Assembly: GCA_026989015.1 (NCBI GenBank)
Contig: JALSKD010000010.1
Location: 1-33,540 of the forward strand
Reading direction: 5' to 3'
DNA from: Gammaproteobacteria bacterium
GTDB taxonomy: Bacteria; Pseudomonadota; Gammaproteobacteria; GCA-001735895
Length of the DNA: 33,540 bases
Part shown: piece by piece, positions 3,197 to 22,614 of the stretch
How the letters are laid out: each line of letters begins with the position of its first letter
How positions within the stretch are numbered: the first letter of the stretch is position 1
The notes under the pieces: model-generated
Told to the model about the DNA's origin: nothing
Database searches by the model: none
The model's input: the letters and a program-made list of their open reading frames with translations, nothing else
Program-made: the position numbers and the translations under genes

Positions 3197-4435
3197 TTGC
3201 TTAATCGTCGCATCGTCATCACCGGCCTGGGCATGCTGTCTCCGGTCGGCAATACCGTCGAAGAATCCTGGAAGAACATCGTGGCCGGTGTCAGCGGCGT
3301 CGCGCCGATCACCGCCTTCGATGCTTCCGAATTCCCGGTACGCATCTCCGCGTCCGTGAAGAACTTCGATCCCACCGACTACATACCGAAGAAGGACATC
3401 AAGAAGATGGACCCCTTCATCCATTTCGGTATCGCCGCCGGCATTCAGGCACTGGAAGACTCCGGTCTCGAAGTGACCGAGGAAAACGCCGAGCGCATTG
3501 GCGTTGCCATCGGTTCAGGCATCGGTGGGCTGCCCGGCATCGAGCGCAACCGAGACCTGTTTGTCGCCGGCGGCGCACGCAAGATATCCCCGTTCTTCGT
3601 GCCCAGCTCGATCATCAACATGGTCTCCGGCAACCTGTCGATCATGAAAGGCCTCAAGGGACCCAACATTTCCATCGTCAGTGCCTGCACCACCGGCGCC
3701 CACAACATCGGCGACGCGGCACGAATGATCGCCTATGGCGATGCCGATGTGATGATCGCCGGCGGTGCCGAAATGGCCACCTGCCCGCTCGGAGTGGGCG
3801 GTTTCGCCGCCGCACGGGCACTCTCTACACGCAATGACGAACCGGAGAAGGCGAGCCGGCCCTGGGATGTCGACCGGGACGGTTTCGTGCTGGGCGACGG
3901 CGCCGGTGTAGTGGTGCTCGAGGACTACGAGCACGCCAGGGCACGCGGCGCAAACATCTACTGCGAACTGGCCGGCTACGGCATGAGCAGTGACGCCCAC
4001 CACATGACCCAGCCCTCACCCAGCGGCGAAGGCCCGGCCCGTTGCATGCTCAATGCATTGAAGGATGCAGGTATCGACAAGGAGCAGGTGGGCTACATCA
4101 ATGCCCACGGCACCTCCACCCCGGCCGGCGACAAGGCCGAGACCGAAGCGGTCAAGCGCGCCATGGGTGAACACGCCTACAAGCTGGTGGTCAGCTCCAC
4201 CAAGTCGATGACCGGGCATCTGCTCGGTGCCGCGGGTGGCATCGAAGCCATTTTCGCGATCCTTGCGCTGCGCGACCAGGTGATTCCGCCGACCATCAAC
4301 CTGGAGAACCAGGACCCCGAGTGCGATCTGGACTACTGTGCCAATGAGGCGCGAGACGCCAAACTGGATGTCACCCTGTCCAACTCCTTCGGCTTCGGCG
4401 GCACCAACGGAACCCTGCTGTTCAAGAAGATCTGA
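3197..4435 (+). CDS. fabF: 3-oxoacyl-ACP synthase II FabF (TTG start)
   Basis: FabF condenses malonyl-ACP with acyl-ACP to elongate fatty acids. The 412-residue length matches the family (413 in E. coli). The Cys-His-His active site is complete: Cys164 in [10 protein letters not shown], His304 in [11 protein letters not shown] and His341 in [11 protein letters not shown]. The N-terminus [17 protein letters not shown] fits the family only if translation starts at the TTG at 3197. There is no in-frame ATG between the upstream stop at 3149 and this codon, and GAGG at 3185-3188 is well placed. It follows the acpP terminator and precedes pabB by 22 bp. Confidence 0.96.
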
Positions 4436-6573: not shown

Positions 6574-7617
6574 GTGAAGCGCTGGATGCTGCGCGCCATC
6601 CTGGTGCTGATCACGGCTGTGCTGCTCGTGGGCGGCTTCATCGGCTGGCGCTTCATCGAATTCCGTGACAAGCCGCTGCCTCCGGTCGATGGAGACGAGG
6701 CGGTGTTCACCATCAACAGCGGCAGTTCGCTGCGTCAGGTGTCGCGCCAGCTCGCCGCGCGCGGCCTCATCGAGGAGGCCTGGCTGTTCGAACTGCTGGC
6801 CCGCAGCCAGAGCGATGCCGGAGCCATCAAGGCCGGCGAATACCGCATCCGGCCGGGAGATACCGCGCAGACCCTGCTGCAGCGATTGCGTGACGGCGAC
6901 TCGGTCTCCCACGCCTTCACGATCATCGAGGGCTGGACCTTCCGCCAGTTGCGGGAACAACTCGCGAAGAATCCGGTACTGCGCCAGACCATCGCCCCTT
7001 CAGACAGCGATGATGCCGTAATGACCCGGCTCGGCCACCCGGGCGAGCACCCCGAAGGGCGTTTCCTGCCGGATACCTACCATTTTCCTCGAGGCACCAG
7101 TGATCTCCAGTTCCTCGAGCGCGCCTACCACGCAATGGAAAAGGCGCTGAACGAAGAATGGCGCGAGCGCGCACCCGGCCTCCCGCTGAATACACCCTAT
7201 GAGGCGCTGATTCTTGCATCCATCATCGAGAAGGAAACCGGCGCGGCCTTCGAACGGCCATTGATCGCGGCGGTGTTCATCCAGCGGCTGAAAAAGGGCA
7301 TGCGCCTGCAGACCGATCCGACCATCATCTATGGACTGGGCGAGGACTACGACGGCAATATCCGCTACCGTGACCTCAAGCGCAAGACGCCCTACAACAC
7401 CTACATCATCAGAGGACTGCCACCCACGCCGATCGCCCTGCCGGGGCGCGATGCCTTGCACGCCGCCCTGCATCCGGCCGACAGCGATGCCCTCTACTTC
7501 GTCTCCAAGGGCGACGGCACCCATTACTTCTCGCGCACGCTCGAGGAACACAACCGTGCGGTCAGCAAGTATCAGCTCAAGGGGCGCAAACCCAAACGCA
7601 AGCCGGAGGCCGGATGA
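6574..7617 (+). CDS. mltG: Endolytic murein transglycosylase MltG (GTG start)
   Basis: MltG (YceG) cleaves nascent glycan strands at the inner membrane and is thought to set their length. The 347-residue product has an N-terminal transmembrane anchor at about residues 6-26, a LysM-like region, and the catalytic domain with Glu219 in ASIIEKETG. LQTDPTIIYGLG and YNTYIIRGLPPTPIALPG follow. Translation starts at a GTG with AGGAG at 6561-6565, 8 bases upstream. Its stop overlaps the tmk start by 4 bp (ATGA). The C-terminal tail is short and basic. Confidence 0.95.
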   Translation: MKRWMLRAILVLITAVLLVGGFIGWRFIEFRDKPLPPVDGDEAVFTINSGSSLRQVSRQLAARGLIEEAWLFELLARSQSDAGAIKAGEYRIRPGDTAQTLLQRLRDGDSVSHAFTIIEGWTFRQLREQLAKNPVLRQTIAPSDSDDAVMTRLGHPGEHPEGRFLPDTYHFPRGTSDLQFLERAYHAMEKALNEEWRERAPGLPLNTPYEALILASIIEKETGAAFERPLIAAVFIQRLKKGMRLQTDPTIIYGLGEDYDGNIRYRDLKRKTPYNTYIIRGLPPTPIALPGRDALHAALHPADSDALYFVSKGDGTHYFSRTLEEHNRAVSKYQLKGRKPKRKPEAG

Positions 7618-8261
7618 AGGCATCAGCCGACATGATCGTCATCGACGGCGTTGACGGGGCCGGCAAGGGCGTGCAGTCCCGCCTGCTGCACCAGGCCTTC
7701 CAGGATGCGGGGCATACCTGCATCCTGACCCGCGAACCCGGTGGTTCGCCGGCCGCCGAGGAGATCCGCGAGCTGCTGGTTTGCGGCGATCCGGACAAGT
7801 GGGACAGCCTCACCGAGCTGCTGCTGATGTATGCCGCACGCCGCGCCCATCTGCGGGATACGGTATGGCCGGCCCTGCAGCGCGGCAGCTGGGTCATCTC
7901 CGACCGCTTCGCCGACTCCAGCCGCGCCTTTCAGGGCATTGCCGGCGATCTCGGCCTGGATACGGTGGAACGCATACACCGCATTACGGTCGGCGATTTC
8001 CGTCCCGGCCTGGTGCTGATTCTCGATATCGACGAATCGGTGGCGCTGGCGAGGGCCGCGGCGCGGGGCGAGGGCGAGGACCGATTCGAGAAAAAGGGCG
8101 CCGAATATCACCGGCGCGTGCGTGAGGCCTTCCGCCAGATCGCCGCCTCCGACCCGGATCAATACCGGCTGATCGACGCCAGCGGTGACATCAAAACGGT
8201 GCGCCGCCAGATCTTCGAAGCCGTCAACCGCCGCTTTGGCCTGCAGCTCGAGCCCCGATGA
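7614..8261 (+). CDS. tmk: Thymidylate kinase
   Basis: Thymidylate kinase phosphorylates dTMP to dTDP. The 215-residue length is normal. Recognisable parts are the N-terminal P-loop (residues 12-19), TREPGGSPAAEEIRELL, SDRFADSSRAFQG, and the lid/helix stretch with EDRFEKKG. The P-loop reads GVDGAGKG followed by Val. The serine or threonine that normally follows the Walker A lysine is replaced by Gly19, and the next residue, Thr in the adenylate-kinase version GAGKGTQ, is Val20. The gene overlaps mltG and holB by 4 bp each. A shorter start at 7632 is possible but less consistent with the overlap. Confidence 0.92.
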   Translation: MKASADMIVIDGVDGAGKGVQSRLLHQAFQDAGHTCILTREPGGSPAAEEIRELLVCGDPDKWDSLTELLLMYAARRAHLRDTVWPALQRGSWVISDRFADSSRAFQGIAGDLGLDTVERIHRITVGDFRPGLVLILDIDESVALARAAARGEGEDRFEKKGAEYHRRVREAFRQIAASDPDQYRLIDASGDIKTVRRQIFEAVNRRFGLQLEPR

Positions 8262-9259
8262 ACGAAGAACGGCAACCCCTGGTCGATCCGGTCACGCCGA
8301 CGGCCCGGCCCTGGCAACAGCCGCTGATCGCGCGTCTGCGGGCGCAGGCTCGCCAGGACCGTCTGCCGCATGCCCTGCTGGTCGAGCCGGGGAGCCGTGC
8401 CGACAGCCGTGACTTCGGCTGGCGGCTGGCACAGGCCCTGATGTGTGCGGCGCAGCCCGGTGACGACGCCTGCGGCAGCTGTGATTCCTGCCGGCTGATG
8501 GCGGCCAACAGCCATCCGGATTTCAGCTTCGTGACCCGGGAGCGCAACCCGAAGCGTGATGGCCGGCTCAACCGTGACATCAGCGTCGACCAGATCCGCC
8601 AGCTGATCCACCGCATGACCCTGACAGGCAGCCAGCAGGCCGGGCGCTGCGCGCTGATCTACCCGGCCGAACGCATGAACCGTGAAGCCGCCAACAGCCT
8701 GCTGAAGACGCTGGAAGAGCCGCCTCCAGGCACACTCATGATTCTGCTCAGCCATCATCCGGCACGCCTGCCGGTCACCATCCGCAGCCGCTGCCAGCAC
8801 TGGCGGGTCGATCTTCCCTCCAGGGATCAGGCTGAAGACTGGCTGCGCGGGCAGGGCGTCGATGAAGCCTCCATCGGGCCGGCCCTCGATCTGGCAGAAG
8901 GTGATCCGCAGCAGGCATTTCAGCTGGTGGACACCGGTTTTCTGCGCATGCAGCAGGATTTCGAGGATCGTCTCCAGGGCTATCTCGAGGGCCGGACGGA
9001 CGCGCCGTCGCTGGTGCAGCAACTCAAGGACTTCGACAGTGACGACTGGCGCCGCCTGCTGGCCAACCGCCTGCAGCGGCAGATCCGCGAACAGGCACTG
9101 GCAGCGGTGGACACCGCGGGCAAACAGCGTTTGCGGCAATTGCTCGATCTGCAGGCGCGCAGCGACCGGCCGCTGCAGGTGGAAGAAACCAACCTCAATC
9201 TGCAACTGCAGCTGGAAGATCTGCTAATATCCTTCAAAACCGCCTTGCACAGAGGATAA
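8258..9259 (+). CDS. holB: DNA polymerase III subunit delta'
   Basis: Delta' is the stator subunit of the clamp loader, which places the beta sliding clamp on DNA. The 333-residue protein has the clamp-loader core. A four-cysteine zinc site spans CAAQPGDDACGSCDSC, followed by SHPDF and LLKTLEEPPPG. The TIRSRCQ segment carries the SRC motif. No Walker A motif is visible, as expected for delta'. The ATGA overlap with tmk and the tmk-holB-pilZ order are conserved, for example in Pseudomonas. Confidence 0.94.
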   Translation: MNEERQPLVDPVTPTARPWQQPLIARLRAQARQDRLPHALLVEPGSRADSRDFGWRLAQALMCAAQPGDDACGSCDSCRLMAANSHPDFSFVTRERNPKRDGRLNRDISVDQIRQLIHRMTLTGSQQAGRCALIYPAERMNREAANSLLKTLEEPPPGTLMILLSHHPARLPVTIRSRCQHWRVDLPSRDQAEDWLRGQGVDEASIGPALDLAEGDPQQAFQLVDTGFLRMQQDFEDRLQGYLEGRTDAPSLVQQLKDFDSDDWRRLLANRLQRQIREQALAAVDTAGKQRLRQLLDLQARSDRPLQVEETNLNLQLQLEDLLISFKTALHRG

Positions 9260-9261
9260 AC

Positions 9262-9606
9262 ATGGCCGCACCGAGTCAGGGAATCTTGTCGCTCAACATC
9301 AAGGACAAACAGGCGCTGTACGCTGCCTACATGCCGTTCGTCAAGAACGGCGGATTGTTCATCCCCACCAACAAGCAATACAAGCTGGGGGACGAGGTCT
9401 TCATGCTGCTGACCCTGATGGAAGACAAGGAGCGCCTGCCGGTGGCCGGCAGGATCATCTGGATTACCCCCCAGGGCGCGCAAAGCAACAAGGCCGCGGG
9501 CATCGGCGTACAGTTCAGCGAGCAGGACAACGGCGCCACCCGCAACAAGATCGAAGGCCTGCTGGCCGGAGCGCTGCAGGCGGACAGACCCACCCATACC
9601 ATGTGA
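9262..9606 (+). CDS. pilZ: PilZ-domain type IV pilus assembly protein
   Basis: This is a 114-residue single PilZ domain. In Pseudomonas the holB-pilZ-tatD order is the same, and PilZ there is needed for type IV pilus biogenesis. The domain shows FVKNGGLFIPTNKQYKLGDEV and RIIWITPQGAQSNKAAGIGVQF. The arginine-rich RxxxR element that binds cyclic di-GMP in other PilZ proteins is not visible near the N-terminus, which fits the non-binding PilZ subtype. AGAGGA overlaps the holB stop and serves as the ribosome binding site, 2 bp separate the genes. No other pilus gene is in the window. Confidence 0.93.
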   Translation: MAAPSQGILSLNIKDKQALYAAYMPFVKNGGLFIPTNKQYKLGDEVFMLLTLMEDKERLPVAGRIIWITPQGAQSNKAAGIGVQFSEQDNGATRNKIEGLLAGALQADRPTHTM

Positions 9607-9663: not shown

Positions 9664-10437
9664 ATGTTTTTCGACTCCCATTGCCACCTCGATCGTATCG
9701 ATCTGGCCGATTTCGGCGGTGACTTCGATCGCCTGATGGCCCGCAGCCGCGAGCAGGGCGTCGATGAGCTGGTCTGTATCGCGGTCAACCTTGAGTCCTT
9801 CGAGTCCATGTACGCCCTGGTGGAACCGCTGAAGGGCGTGTACGCGACCGTCGGTGTGCACCCGGACCATGAGCAATCCCGCGAACCCTCGGTCGAGGAA
9901 CTGGTCGAGCTGTCGCGCCGCGACAAGATCGTCGCCATCGGCGAGACCGGCCTCGACTACTTCCACACCGATGGCCCCGAGTGGCAGCGCGAGCGCTTCC
10001 GTGTGCATGTGGAAGCCGCGCTGAAGGCCGACAAGCCATTGGTCATCCACACCCGCCAGGCGCGCGATGACACCCTCGGTATTCTGCGCGAGCAGGGCGC
10101 CGAGCGCGTGGGCGGCGTGCTGCATTGTTTTACCGAAGACTGGGACATGGCCAGGCAGGCCATCGATCTCGGCTTCTACATCTCCATCTCCGGCATCGTC
10201 ACCTTCCATCAGGCGCAGAATGTACGCGACATGGCGATGAAGATTCCTCTCGACCGGCTGCTGATCGAGACCGATTCGCCCTGGCTGTCGCCGGCGCCGT
10301 TCCGCGGCAAGACCAATTACCCCGGCCAGGTGCGGCTAGTGGCGGAGAAACTGGCGGAGATACGGGGCGAAGCGCTGGAAGAACTGGCGGCGGTCACGGC
10401 CGCCAATGCCCGCCGTCTGTTCCGGATCGCCGCATGA
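9664..10437 (+). CDS. TatD-family metal-dependent hydrolase (YcfH-like)
   Basis: TatD-family proteins are TIM-barrel metal hydrolases; several are 3'-5' DNases, and the precise role of the YcfH branch is less certain. The 257-residue protein starts FFDSHCHLD, the metal-binding HxH, and continues with IGETGLDYF, VIHTRQA, LHCFTEDW and ETDSPWLSP, covering all expected metal ligands. The open frame extends to 9619, but the ATG at 9664 places the HxH motif at the usual distance from the N-terminus. Its stop overlaps the trhP start (ATGA). Confidence 0.92.
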   Translation: MFFDSHCHLDRIDLADFGGDFDRLMARSREQGVDELVCIAVNLESFESMYALVEPLKGVYATVGVHPDHEQSREPSVEELVELSRRDKIVAIGETGLDYFHTDGPEWQRERFRVHVEAALKADKPLVIHTRQARDDTLGILREQGAERVGGVLHCFTEDWDMARQAIDLGFYISISGIVTFHQAQNVRDMAMKIPLDRLLIETDSPWLSPAPFRGKTNYPGQVRLVAEKLAEIRGEALEELAAVTAANARRLFRIAA

Positions 10438-19538: not shown

Positions 19539-20027
19539 ATGGAACCTTCTTCAGTCGAAGTCCTGAACGGTCGCAGCGATTGCAGTGATGCTGTGAAACG
19601 CCTGCTCGAACGGGCCGAGCGGGAACTTGCACTGTTCACCCAGGAGCTGGAACCCCTGCTCTACAACCACCCCGAAGTCTGCCGCCGGTGTTTCGAAATC
19701 GCCCGTGGCAGCCGTAACGGACGCATCCGCCTGATTGCCCAGTCCACCCGCAGCGCCGCCGCCCAGGGGCACTGCCTGATCGACCTGTCCCAGCGGCTCA
19801 GCTCACGGGTCCGGATTCGCACGCCCGCGACGCCGGAGTTGCAAGCCTTTCGCGAAAGCTGGCTCATCGTCGATGACCACAGCATGCTGCGCATCAACAA
19901 CCCCGAACGCTGGGAAGGCAGCCTGATCCTCCACGATCGGCGCGTGGTGCGCGAGCAACTGGAATTTTTCGACGCCGCCTGGGAAAACAGCGAACCCGAT
20001 CAGCAGACGCGGAGATTGCATATCTGA
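19539..20027 (+). CDS. Uncharacterised protein downstream of the GNAT gene (DUF7931-like)
   Basis: The 162-residue protein is not firmly recognised. It has no signal peptide or membrane segment and is rich in Arg, Glu and Leu. The pattern of ELALFTQELEPLLYN, GRIRLIAQSTRSA and ESWLIVDDHSMLRI recalls half of a phospholipase-D-like fold, but no HKD motif is present, so an enzymatic role is doubtful. I recall a family named DUF7931 with this look and context, but could not check. It starts 3 bp after the GNAT gene and is the last gene before the convergent GIY-YIG gene. A functional link with the GNAT protein is inference from context. Confidence 0.7.
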   Translation: MEPSSVEVLNGRSDCSDAVKRLLERAERELALFTQELEPLLYNHPEVCRRCFEIARGSRNGRIRLIAQSTRSAAAQGHCLIDLSQRLSSRVRIRTPATPELQAFRESWLIVDDHSMLRINNPERWEGSLILHDRRVVREQLEFFDAAWENSEPDQQTRRLHI

Positions 20028-20081: not shown

Positions 20082-21110
20082 TCAGGCTTGCCGGTTACAG
20101 GCCTCTGTCACCCAATCATGTACCGGCTGCAGCAGTGTTATACCTTCCCTGATGGTCTGGTGCGGGTCTCCCTCAGGGTCTATCGGGGTCCATATCGTCA
20201 AATGAGGGGAAACAGGTCGGACGACGGATAAGCCATCCGATACCCTAGTGACAGGTTGCCCCGGGTTTCGTGCTCTGAAGTTCCTTTTACTGTCCAGGCA
20301 GGACAGCGCTTCATTCAGAATGTTTGTCCACAGATCGCGATCCATTTGGCTGAGGGGGAATTCCTTTCCTCCCAGCAGTGCTTCACGAATCTCCAGACGG
20401 GCTGCTGCCTGCCAGGCATCTCGGGCAAAGCGTACGATGACTCGGTCCGGGTCAGCAACACGCTGTTTCAAGACGGTAATATCAGGGGCGTTCAAGATAA
20501 AATCCGAAATCAACCAGCGTCCCGTTTTTTCGCTTCCTTCCAGGTTGACCCCCAAATGCACTTCACCCGTATCGCGTTGAATCGACACATTCCACTGGAC
20601 GCCAAGCCTTCCGTCGCTGACCCCGAAATGGGGCCTGTTCAATTGACCAAAGGGCTTGCCTTTAAGACCAAGGACTTCATTGAAAGCGAACAGCAGATGT
20701 GTATAACGCAAGTCCTTCTTTCTTTCCGAAGGCCGTATGACCGAAGTGCTGTCATCAGGTGCGCGGGATCCGTCATTGTTTTCCTCAATCCAGGATATTT
20801 CTGTCTGGTTGTCCAGAATGGATCGAATGGCAACATAGGCATCCTCAGGGGTAAGATTGAAAAATTCACGCCGCTTTTGACGTAGTGGTGACAATTTCTG
20901 ATGGACCAGCCTTTCCAGGGCTCGGCAGTCATCCACTCGGAAATAGGCGGCAACTTCCCACAGGAAATCACCGGTTGAACTCTGGTTGATTTCTGCACAT
21001 CGTTGATAAGGATCGCGGGTGGTCATTCCAATCTTGCACACCGGAAGCACGATGTCCTTAACCTCGAGGATGTACACATAACCCGCGATTTTCCTGGAAG
21101 AATCATTCAT
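20082..21110 (-). CDS. GIY-YIG (T5orf172/MUG113-type) protein with unrecognised C-terminal domain
   Basis: The 342-residue product begins with a T5orf172-type GIY-YIG nuclease-like domain (residues about 10-100). GYVYILEV, then CKIGMTTRDPYQRCAEIN, ALERLVHQKL and RREFFNL, including the Glu where the family has its catalytic acid, fit this fold. The rest, about residues 125-342, has no domain I recognise; it is soluble, mixed alpha/beta, with no signal peptide. The G+C content is visibly below that of the neighbours, suggesting transfer. Start choice is uncertain: a GTG at 21152 lies one base after the stop of the decarboxylase gene and would add 14 residues; neither start has a clear ribosome binding site. 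It could be a restriction, repair or regulatory protein. Confidence 0.72.
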   Translation of the reverse strand: MNDSSRKIAGYVYILEVKDIVLPVCKIGMTTRDPYQRCAEINQSSTGDFLWEVAAYFRVDDCRALERLVHQKLSPLRQKRREFFNLTPEDAYVAIRSILDNQTEISWIEENNDGSRAPDDSTSVIRPSERKKDLRYTHLLFAFNEVLGLKGKPFGQLNRPHFGVSDGRLGVQWNVSIQRDTGEVHLGVNLEGSEKTGRWLISDFILNAPDITVLKQRVADPDRVIVRFARDAWQAAARLEIREALLGGKEFPLSQMDRDLWTNILNEALSCLDSKRNFRARNPGQPVTRVSDGLSVVRPVSPHLTIWTPIDPEGDPHQTIREGITLLQPVHDWVTEACNRQA

Positions 21111-21153
21111 AGGGCGGAATCGTCTAACTTTGTCTGGCCGGAAAAGTGCCACT

Positions 21154-22614
21154 TTAATCCGGCAGGTTCAAGAGGCGAACGGCCTCGGCCTCCAGGGCTT
21201 CGACCGCTGCATCGATATCGGCTTCCATGGTGCGGTGATTGATGACCGAGGCGCGCAGCACCCGCAGTTCGTCTTCGCGGGTCAGTGAGAAGACGGCCTC
21301 GCCGCGCTGCTGCAGGGCATAGCAGATGGCTTCGATGCGCCGGTTGTGCTCGACCGGATCGGTCGTGTCGCGCAACCGGAAGGTGACGATGGTGGACACC
21401 GGATCACGACACAGCCGATAGTGCGTGCTGAAGCGGATGCGATCGGCCAGGTAGCGCGTGCGTTCGCAGGCGCGGGCCACGCTCTGCCCCAGCCGCTCGA
21501 TGCCGTAATGGCGGAAGGTGAACCAGACCTTGAGCGCGCGGAAGGAGCGGGAGAGTTCCAGGCCGAAATCGCAGAACCAGGGTTCGCCCCCGGCCAGGGC
21601 TTGGCCGTGAGGAGCCAGGTAGTCGGGACGGATCGAATAGACCCGTTGGTGGAAGTCGCCATCGCGCACCAGCAAGCCGCCGCATTCGTAGCTGACCGAC
21701 ATCAGCTTGTGAAAATCGAAGGCCAGCGAATCGGCGGCACCGATACCCTCGGTCAATCGGCTCCAGGGGCTGCCGGCGATGTGCATCCAGGCACCGAACG
21801 CGCCATCCACATGCAGCCAGCAGTCGTGGCGGTCGCAGATCGCACGCAATGCCGCCAGGTCGTCGAAGCTGCCGGTGTTGACGGTACCGGCGTTACCGAT
21901 CACCAGAAACGGACGCAGACCGCGCGCACGGTCGTTGCGGATGGCGTTGTCGAGTGCTTCGGTATCGATGCGGTGTCCTGCGTCGGTGGGGATGGCCACC
22001 AGGTGATCCGAGCCGATGCCACAGGCTTCGACGGCCTTGATGATCGAGCTGTGCCCCTGGGTCGAACAATAGCAGCGCAATGGTGAACCGGCCTGGAAGA
22101 ACCCGTGTTTCTTGCTGTCCAGACCGAGCCGTCTGAAGGCCGCCAGCTGGATTGCCAGGTGGGTGGCCGCCGAGGTGCCGGTGGTGAGGATGCCGGAGCT
22201 GCCCTGCGGGAAACCGAACAGTTCGTGGCACCAGCGGATCACTTCCCGCTCCACATGCACCGCTCCGTGCTCGCGCCCGCCCACATTGGGGTTGAGCAGA
22301 CTGACGGCGAGGTCGGCGAACACCGAAGCCAGGTTGCCCCCGCCCTGAACCCAGCCGAAAAACCGGGGGTGGGTGTTGCCGTTGCGCCAGGGACGGATCT
22401 GCCTGCGGTAGCGGCGAATCACGGTGGCCATGTCCTCGCCCTGACGGGGCAAGGGTTCCTGGCGCAGTTCGGATTGAAGGCTTTCGGGGATTTCGCGCCA
22501 CACAGGTTTGTCGAAACTGCCGCGCAGGGCGGACAGTTCCTCGCGTGCAAAATCGGCAAGCTGCTGCTCGATGGCCTCCCAGTCTGCGGGATCGAGGCCC
22601 TGGGGATCACTCAT
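21154..22614 (-). CDS. PLP-dependent group II amino acid decarboxylase
   Basis: This 486-residue enzyme belongs to the aromatic-amino-acid/glutamate decarboxylase superfamily of fold type I PLP enzymes. The PLP lysine is Lys303 in FDFHKLMSVSYECGG. Upstream are HPRFFGWVQGGGN, GILTTGTSAATHLA, the STQGHSSI segment with the PLP-stacking His, NAGTVNTG and LHVDGAFGAW. The substrate is unknown; aromatic amino acids, aspartate, 2,4-diaminobutyrate and others are handled in this family. The start overlaps the ald stop by 4 bp (ATGA), so it is translated with the alanine dehydrogenase and the Dpp transporter. Confidence 0.88.
   Translation of the reverse strand: MSDPQGLDPADWEAIEQQLADFAREELSALRGSFDKPVWREIPESLQSELRQEPLPRQGEDMATVIRRYRRQIRPWRNGNTHPRFFGWVQGGGNLASVFADLAVSLLNPNVGGREHGAVHVEREVIRWCHELFGFPQGSSGILTTGTSAATHLAIQLAAFRRLGLDSKKHGFFQAGSPLRCYCSTQGHSSIIKAVEACGIGSDHLVAIPTDAGHRIDTEALDNAIRNDRARGLRPFLVIGNAGTVNTGSFDDLAALRAICDRHDCWLHVDGAFGAWMHIAGSPWSRLTEGIGAADSLAFDFHKLMSVSYECGGLLVRDGDFHQRVYSIRPDYLAPHGQALAGGEPWFCDFGLELSRSFRALKVWFTFRHYGIERLGQSVARACERTRYLADRIRFSTHYRLCRDPVSTIVTFRLRDTTDPVEHNRRIEAICYALQQRGEAVFSLTREDELRVLRASVINHRTMEADIDAAVEALEAEAVRLLNLPD

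Follow-up and report, generated by a model that had tools for sequence, protein, structure and literature searches.

The window analysed here, a stretch of 33,540 nucleotides, is contig C10 of a Gammaproteobacteria bacterium genome of 2.9 Mb in 198 contigs. On its minus strand lies a GIY-YIG open reading frame (20082-21152; 356 amino acids from a GTG at 21152). The sequence-only reading that we followed up gave these coordinates, which are real, and left the strand unstated; it also noted correctly that the GTG lies one base past the stop codon of the neighbouring decarboxylase gene (21156-21154). The likely coding sequence starts at an ATG at 21110 (20082-21110, minus strand; 342 amino acids). 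Homologues begin at the equivalent methionine, and because their starts cluster near the pattern MxxxxGYVYIL in the homologue alignment, this ATG is likelier than the GTG.

Upstream on the same strand are genes for a PLP-dependent decarboxylase (21154-22614, minus strand; Pyridoxal_deC, E 9e-58), an alanine dehydrogenase and an oligopeptide ABC transporter, and a DUF7931 gene (19539-20027, plus strand; PF25559, E 3.5e-35) converges with the GIY-YIG gene from the other side. The decarboxylase and DUF7931 genes form the two borders of an insertion site, and orthologues were found for both. Position and strand, and these only, suggest that the GIY-YIG gene may have been captured into the operon.

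Domain architecture and conservation

The N-terminal T5orf172/GIY-YIG assignment, first made from motifs, held up in profile searches. The nuclease domain (20781-21083, minus strand; residues 10-110 of the ATG form) gave significant matches to both T5orf172 (PF10544; E 8e-14, 52.4 bits against a cut-off of 20, residues 24-112 of the GTG-start form) and MUG113 (PF13455; E 4.5e-14, 53.2 bits, cut-off 22.3), and GYVYIL, KIGMTT and RREFF are all present in the translation. When the window protein was aligned with 14 homologues, Y13, K26, G28, R37, H70, E82 and N85 were invariant in the 15 sequences. The catalytic Tyr, Arg, Glu and Asn (Y13, R37, E82 and N85) are thus kept, and with these residues intact the domain is probably an active nuclease. 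Aligned with a SNIPE-like DUF4041 plasmid protein (35% identity over 106 residues), E82 pairs with the glutamate of an RKEFF motif. Viral T5orf172 proteins were fold matches of the full-length model, which had no match in the PDB at E ≤ 0.001. PADLOC profiles matched all 15 members, through PD-lambda-1/SNIPE and PDC-S57 (E down to 3e-17, the value for the window protein, whose best match this is); the PADLOC and PHROG matches span the nuclease part only. PDC-S57, itself only a candidate, aligns with residues 8-148 alone (profile positions 4-142 of 212) and leaves the C-terminal domain uncovered. No transmembrane segment was detected in the window protein (maximum 19-residue mean hydropathy 1.24).

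A variable linker (20712-20780, minus strand) with low model confidence (pLDDT 35-42 around residues 111-130 of the predicted structure) leads into a C-terminal domain of ~210 residues and no known family (20085-20711, minus strand; residues 134-342). Mean pairwise identity across the 15 aligned sequences is 76% in the nuclease, 27% in the linker and 52% in the C-terminal domain, where 43 columns are invariant, including the patterns KG..FGQLN.P.FG.SD...GVQWN, G.NLEG, F.RDAWQ and PHL. We take this half to be a genuine conserved domain because of that identity, those invariant columns, the full-length homologues and one stand-alone copy. The stand-alone copy is a 215-residue ORF on one Paraburkholderia plasmid; no nuclease part lies within about 6 kb of it, and it may instead be a relic. 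Everywhere else, truncated records aside, the domain was found fused to the nuclease.

The C-terminal half had been described as matching nothing recognisable, with structure prediction and a remote-homology search proposed as checks. Both were carried out and no known family emerged: the description holds for Pfam and NCBIfam families, PDB sequences and PDB folds. Modelled alone with AlphaFold, the domain reached a pLDDT of 87.8 and a pTM of 0.86, and a Foldseek search of the PDB returned nothing at E ≤ 0.001 (best 0.27). We call the predicted fold new provisionally, since 15 sequences underlie the model and the fold was compared with PDB structures. DUF4268 (PF14088), at which the strand pattern hinted, was rejected as a relative (hhalign probability 0.9%, no Pfam hit).

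Distribution, acquisition and mobility

Single-sequence searches of genome and viral collections yielded no homologue. Searching GTDB genomes with a two-sequence alignment recovered 15 loci with full-length intact homologues (46-54% identity), plus a frameshifted copy and a remnant with an internal deletion (L079, 6661-6891), in which the opening 49 residues are joined in frame to the final 24. The hosts belong to the Gammaproteobacteria (Pseudomonadota), Chlorobiaceae (Chlorobiota) and Balneolaceae (Balneolota). The 15 loci include a near-duplicate pair, L070 and L072, on a Balneolaceae and a Chlorobiaceae MAG contig; the two are 99.8% identical over 3.1 kb, through either a binning error in one or a very recent transfer. 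With tblastn, 39 plasmid records were found, 31 of them matching over at least 80% of the protein. These copies are mostly from Klebsiella and Enterobacter, and most reside on conjugative or mobilizable plasmids. The NCBI "GIY-YIG nuclease family protein" of Klebsiella, Enterobacter and Citrobacter plasmids is of the same full-length family (47% identity over 96%); it is annotated from the nuclease domain alone, and we know of no function for it. No homologue was present in 50,697 phage records and none was found in IMG/VR, so a phage origin was rejected. The window copy, a long branch (0.68), groups with those of Thiohalophilus, Aeromonas and a Piscirickettsiaceae genome (96% SH-aLRT).

The sequence-only reading had proposed that the gene was acquired, citing its base composition and suggesting comparisons of codon usage with the neighbours and of the locus in close relatives. 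Its counts were correct: the 60-base rows starting at 20461, 20641, 20701 and 20821 have 43-48% G+C, the row at 20401 has 63% and that at 21481 has 66.7%. Over its whole length the gene has 52% G+C against a window mean of 63%, and no other non-overlapping 1029-base stretch of the window is as low (minimum 53.7%). Codon usage likewise sets it apart, with a GC3 of 54.8% compared with 65-86% in the neighbours and the most divergent codon use among the 25 ORFs of the window, to which this comparison was confined. The family gene is low in G+C in high-G+C hosts: the Aeromonas and Thiohalophilus copies have 36% G+C in loci of 62% and 58%, respectively.

Comparison with relatives pointed in the same direction. 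None of the 39 other genomes searched has the protein (one is from the same genus; the remainder belong to the same family or class), and its C-terminal domain occurs in only 2 of 369 genomes sampled from the class, the source genome included. In four sister-genus genomes the DUF7931 and decarboxylase genes abut and converge, their stops ranging from a 12-base overlap to a spacing of 17 bases; in the window the gap between them is 1126 bases. The same-genus relative has other genes at this junction, encoding a multihaem cytochrome of 576 residues and a cytochrome b (G001:C86, L055, 2409-4792), a pair identified by eye from CxxCH motifs; the DUF7931/decarboxylase junction has therefore taken different cargo. 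Overall, codon use, absence from relatives, empty orthologous sites and a patchy, cross-phylum distribution argue that the gene is horizontally acquired. Neither conservation of its position with matching codon use nor a known C-terminal family was found.

The enterobacterial copies also indicate how the gene moves. Those of Atlantibacter, E. coli and Klebsiella share ~1.2 kb of DNA with an identical left border, just outside which they have nothing in common, and the gene evidently travels as a solitary unit of roughly this size. The common left border is marked by the hairpin TCCGCTTYGTGCCARAAGCGGAC (L033 near 4108-4130, L074 near 7851-7873 and L060 near 9929-9951), and a weaker version of it lies near the right border. 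The Thiohalophilus copy (L064) sits between inverted repeats of about 180-340 bases (7488-7825 and 9136-9469), whose arms are up to 93% complementary.

Mobility as an integron cassette is a lead only. A GTTAGAC box (GTTRRRY; 21122-21128, minus strand) 18 bases upstream of the ATG resembles the 5' end of an integron cassette, three related copies have GTTRRRY at -18, -19 and -20, and in Thiohalophilus a CTAACAAGGCGTTC box follows the stop. Downstream of the window gene neither an attC nor a matching R'' box was found, and no attC was present in the window or in the other copies examined. The source genome has an integron-type integrase beside lysS (G000:C14:222-1571; TIGR02249, 407 bits), near which no attC was found.

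Genomic neighbours and a candidate defence role

Across the 20 loci compared, no gene accompanies the family; a partner gene was therefore rejected, and the protein probably acts alone. No cognate methyltransferase is common to these loci or present among the scanned window neighbours, whereas in type II GIY-YIG restriction enzymes it adjoins the gene. Several copies, in unrelated places, lie next to defence genes: in L068 McrB/McrC together with two methyltransferases, in L076 Wadjet JetC/JetD as well as an AriA-like ATPase, in L066 an Argonaute-associated nuclease, in L060 type I restriction on an E. coli chromosome and in L033 AbiV on a Klebsiella plasmid. Such adjacency was noted locus by locus, and many copies lie amid housekeeping genes outside defence islands (L064, L065, L069, L074, L075 and L077). 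The restriction or defence role that had been suggested from the sequence is strengthened by these neighbours and by the PADLOC matches, and stays a suggestion.

We consider it rather probable that this horizontally acquired gene encodes a defence nuclease working as a single-gene system, with a C-terminal domain that discriminates foreign DNA, a reading that builds on the two-domain architecture, the intact catalytic residues, the acquisition, the solitary mobility and the defence neighbours in several relatives. The N-terminal GIY-YIG domain would cut DNA, while the C-terminal domain would bind a mark of invading DNA, whether a modified base, a structure in the DNA or a component of the phage, and in this way would bring or license the nuclease. 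Since no partner methyltransferase or antitoxin would be needed, the choice between self and non-self must, on this proposal, lie within the protein itself; by analogy, such discrimination would have to be built in as it is in CMoRE and SNIPE. Both the C-terminal ligand and protection against phages or plasmids are presumed from sequence. As the window copy is a long branch, a relaxed function in its present host is conceivable.

A narrower form of this reading, argued from CMoRE and the type IV restriction systems, strikes us as somewhat unlikely. CMoRE has an N-terminal GIY-YIG domain followed by a C-terminal domain that senses 5hmC (PMC12923530). Cleavage by CMoRE is confined to 5hmC/5ghmC DNA. 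Its domain order and single-gene organisation match those of the window protein: CMoRE/PD-T4-3 too is a single gene with an N-terminal GIY-YIG domain and a C-terminal domain of its own, with a Y-x-Y pattern at the first motif. Type IV restriction systems also include winged-helix fusion endonucleases (PMC11037411), and the lack of a shared cognate methyltransferase and the copy beside McrBC would fit such an enzyme. However, the C-terminal domain is unlike that of CMoRE (hhalign probability 0.1, no detectable similarity) and unlike any Pfam reader domain, and at about 210 residues it is longer than CMoRE's; whole PD-T4-3 proteins compared have 234-285 residues. The YIG position holds Lys in the window protein and Tyr in CMoRE, and nothing in it visibly corresponds to the acidic autoinhibitory loop of CMoRE: the segment that precedes the catalytic Glu is basic (PLRQKRREFF). 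The PD-T4-3 model (PDLC04031) had no hit in the source genome and none among the PADLOC hits of the family. For want of such a match and of profile similarity to the CMoRE C-terminal domain, membership of CMoRE was rejected.

SNIPE, in which a related nuclease domain is accompanied by DUF4041 and by a membrane anchor (PMC13190303), offers a second comparison. SNIPE/PD-lambda-1 is likewise a single-gene system with a related GIY-YIG domain (PADLOC PD-Lambda-1, E 9e-10) and a conserved Glu in the corresponding motif. Its nuclease is C-terminal, whereas that of the window protein is N-terminal, the window protein has no DUF4041 in a Pfam scan, and most SNIPE members have the N-terminal transmembrane segment that it lacks. 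By these comparisons, the window protein belongs to neither CMoRE nor SNIPE. Loss of the membrane anchor makes SNIPE toxic to its host (PMC13190303), and the window protein, which has no transmembrane segment, might accordingly be an abortive-infection type toxin that senses infection, degrades host DNA and kills the cell. We judge this unlikely: no antitoxin or second gene is common to the loci, so the toxic activity would have to be restrained by the protein itself.

Distinctly unlikely, in our assessment, is a selfish, homing-like endonuclease that would spread by cutting empty sites without benefit to the host. The solitary movement of a unit with the same borders in three enterobacterial genera would suit such an element, as would insertion at an intergenic junction, which leaves host genes intact. 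T5orf172 nuclease genes are also reportedly among those covered by a study of nuclease genes located where phage genomes recombine (PMC10448857). The insertion sites, however, resemble one another neither in sequence nor in gene content, whereas homing is directed at a conserved target; the phage collections searched hold no homologue, and of the DNA-binding modules known from homing enzymes none matches the C-terminal domain. DNA binding was the first role described for T5orf172 domains, and GIY-YIG domains have repair functions as well (UvrC), but a repair or regulatory protein with no part in defence is very unlikely for a gene that is so rare and patchy in its class, is carried on plasmids and lies beside defence genes.

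The defence-nuclease reading concerns a gene that was acquired and belongs to a conserved but undescribed family with two domains, for which the evidence of defence is circumstantial. The earlier finding stands overall and is stronger than proposed. More tentatively, the C-terminal domain may be a new recognition fold with an undescribed cue, and the gene a new cross-phylum, cassette-sized single-gene defence system. How CMoRE and SNIPE, both single-gene GIY-YIG defence enzymes, work became clear only in 2026, in each case from the target of the other domain. In the present family the partner domain is a third one, unrelated to those two; it is compact and well conserved, has a confident model and occurs on plasmids. 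If the protein is protective, the family would provide a new means of marking foreign DNA that can be tested directly, and perhaps a reagent of practical use.
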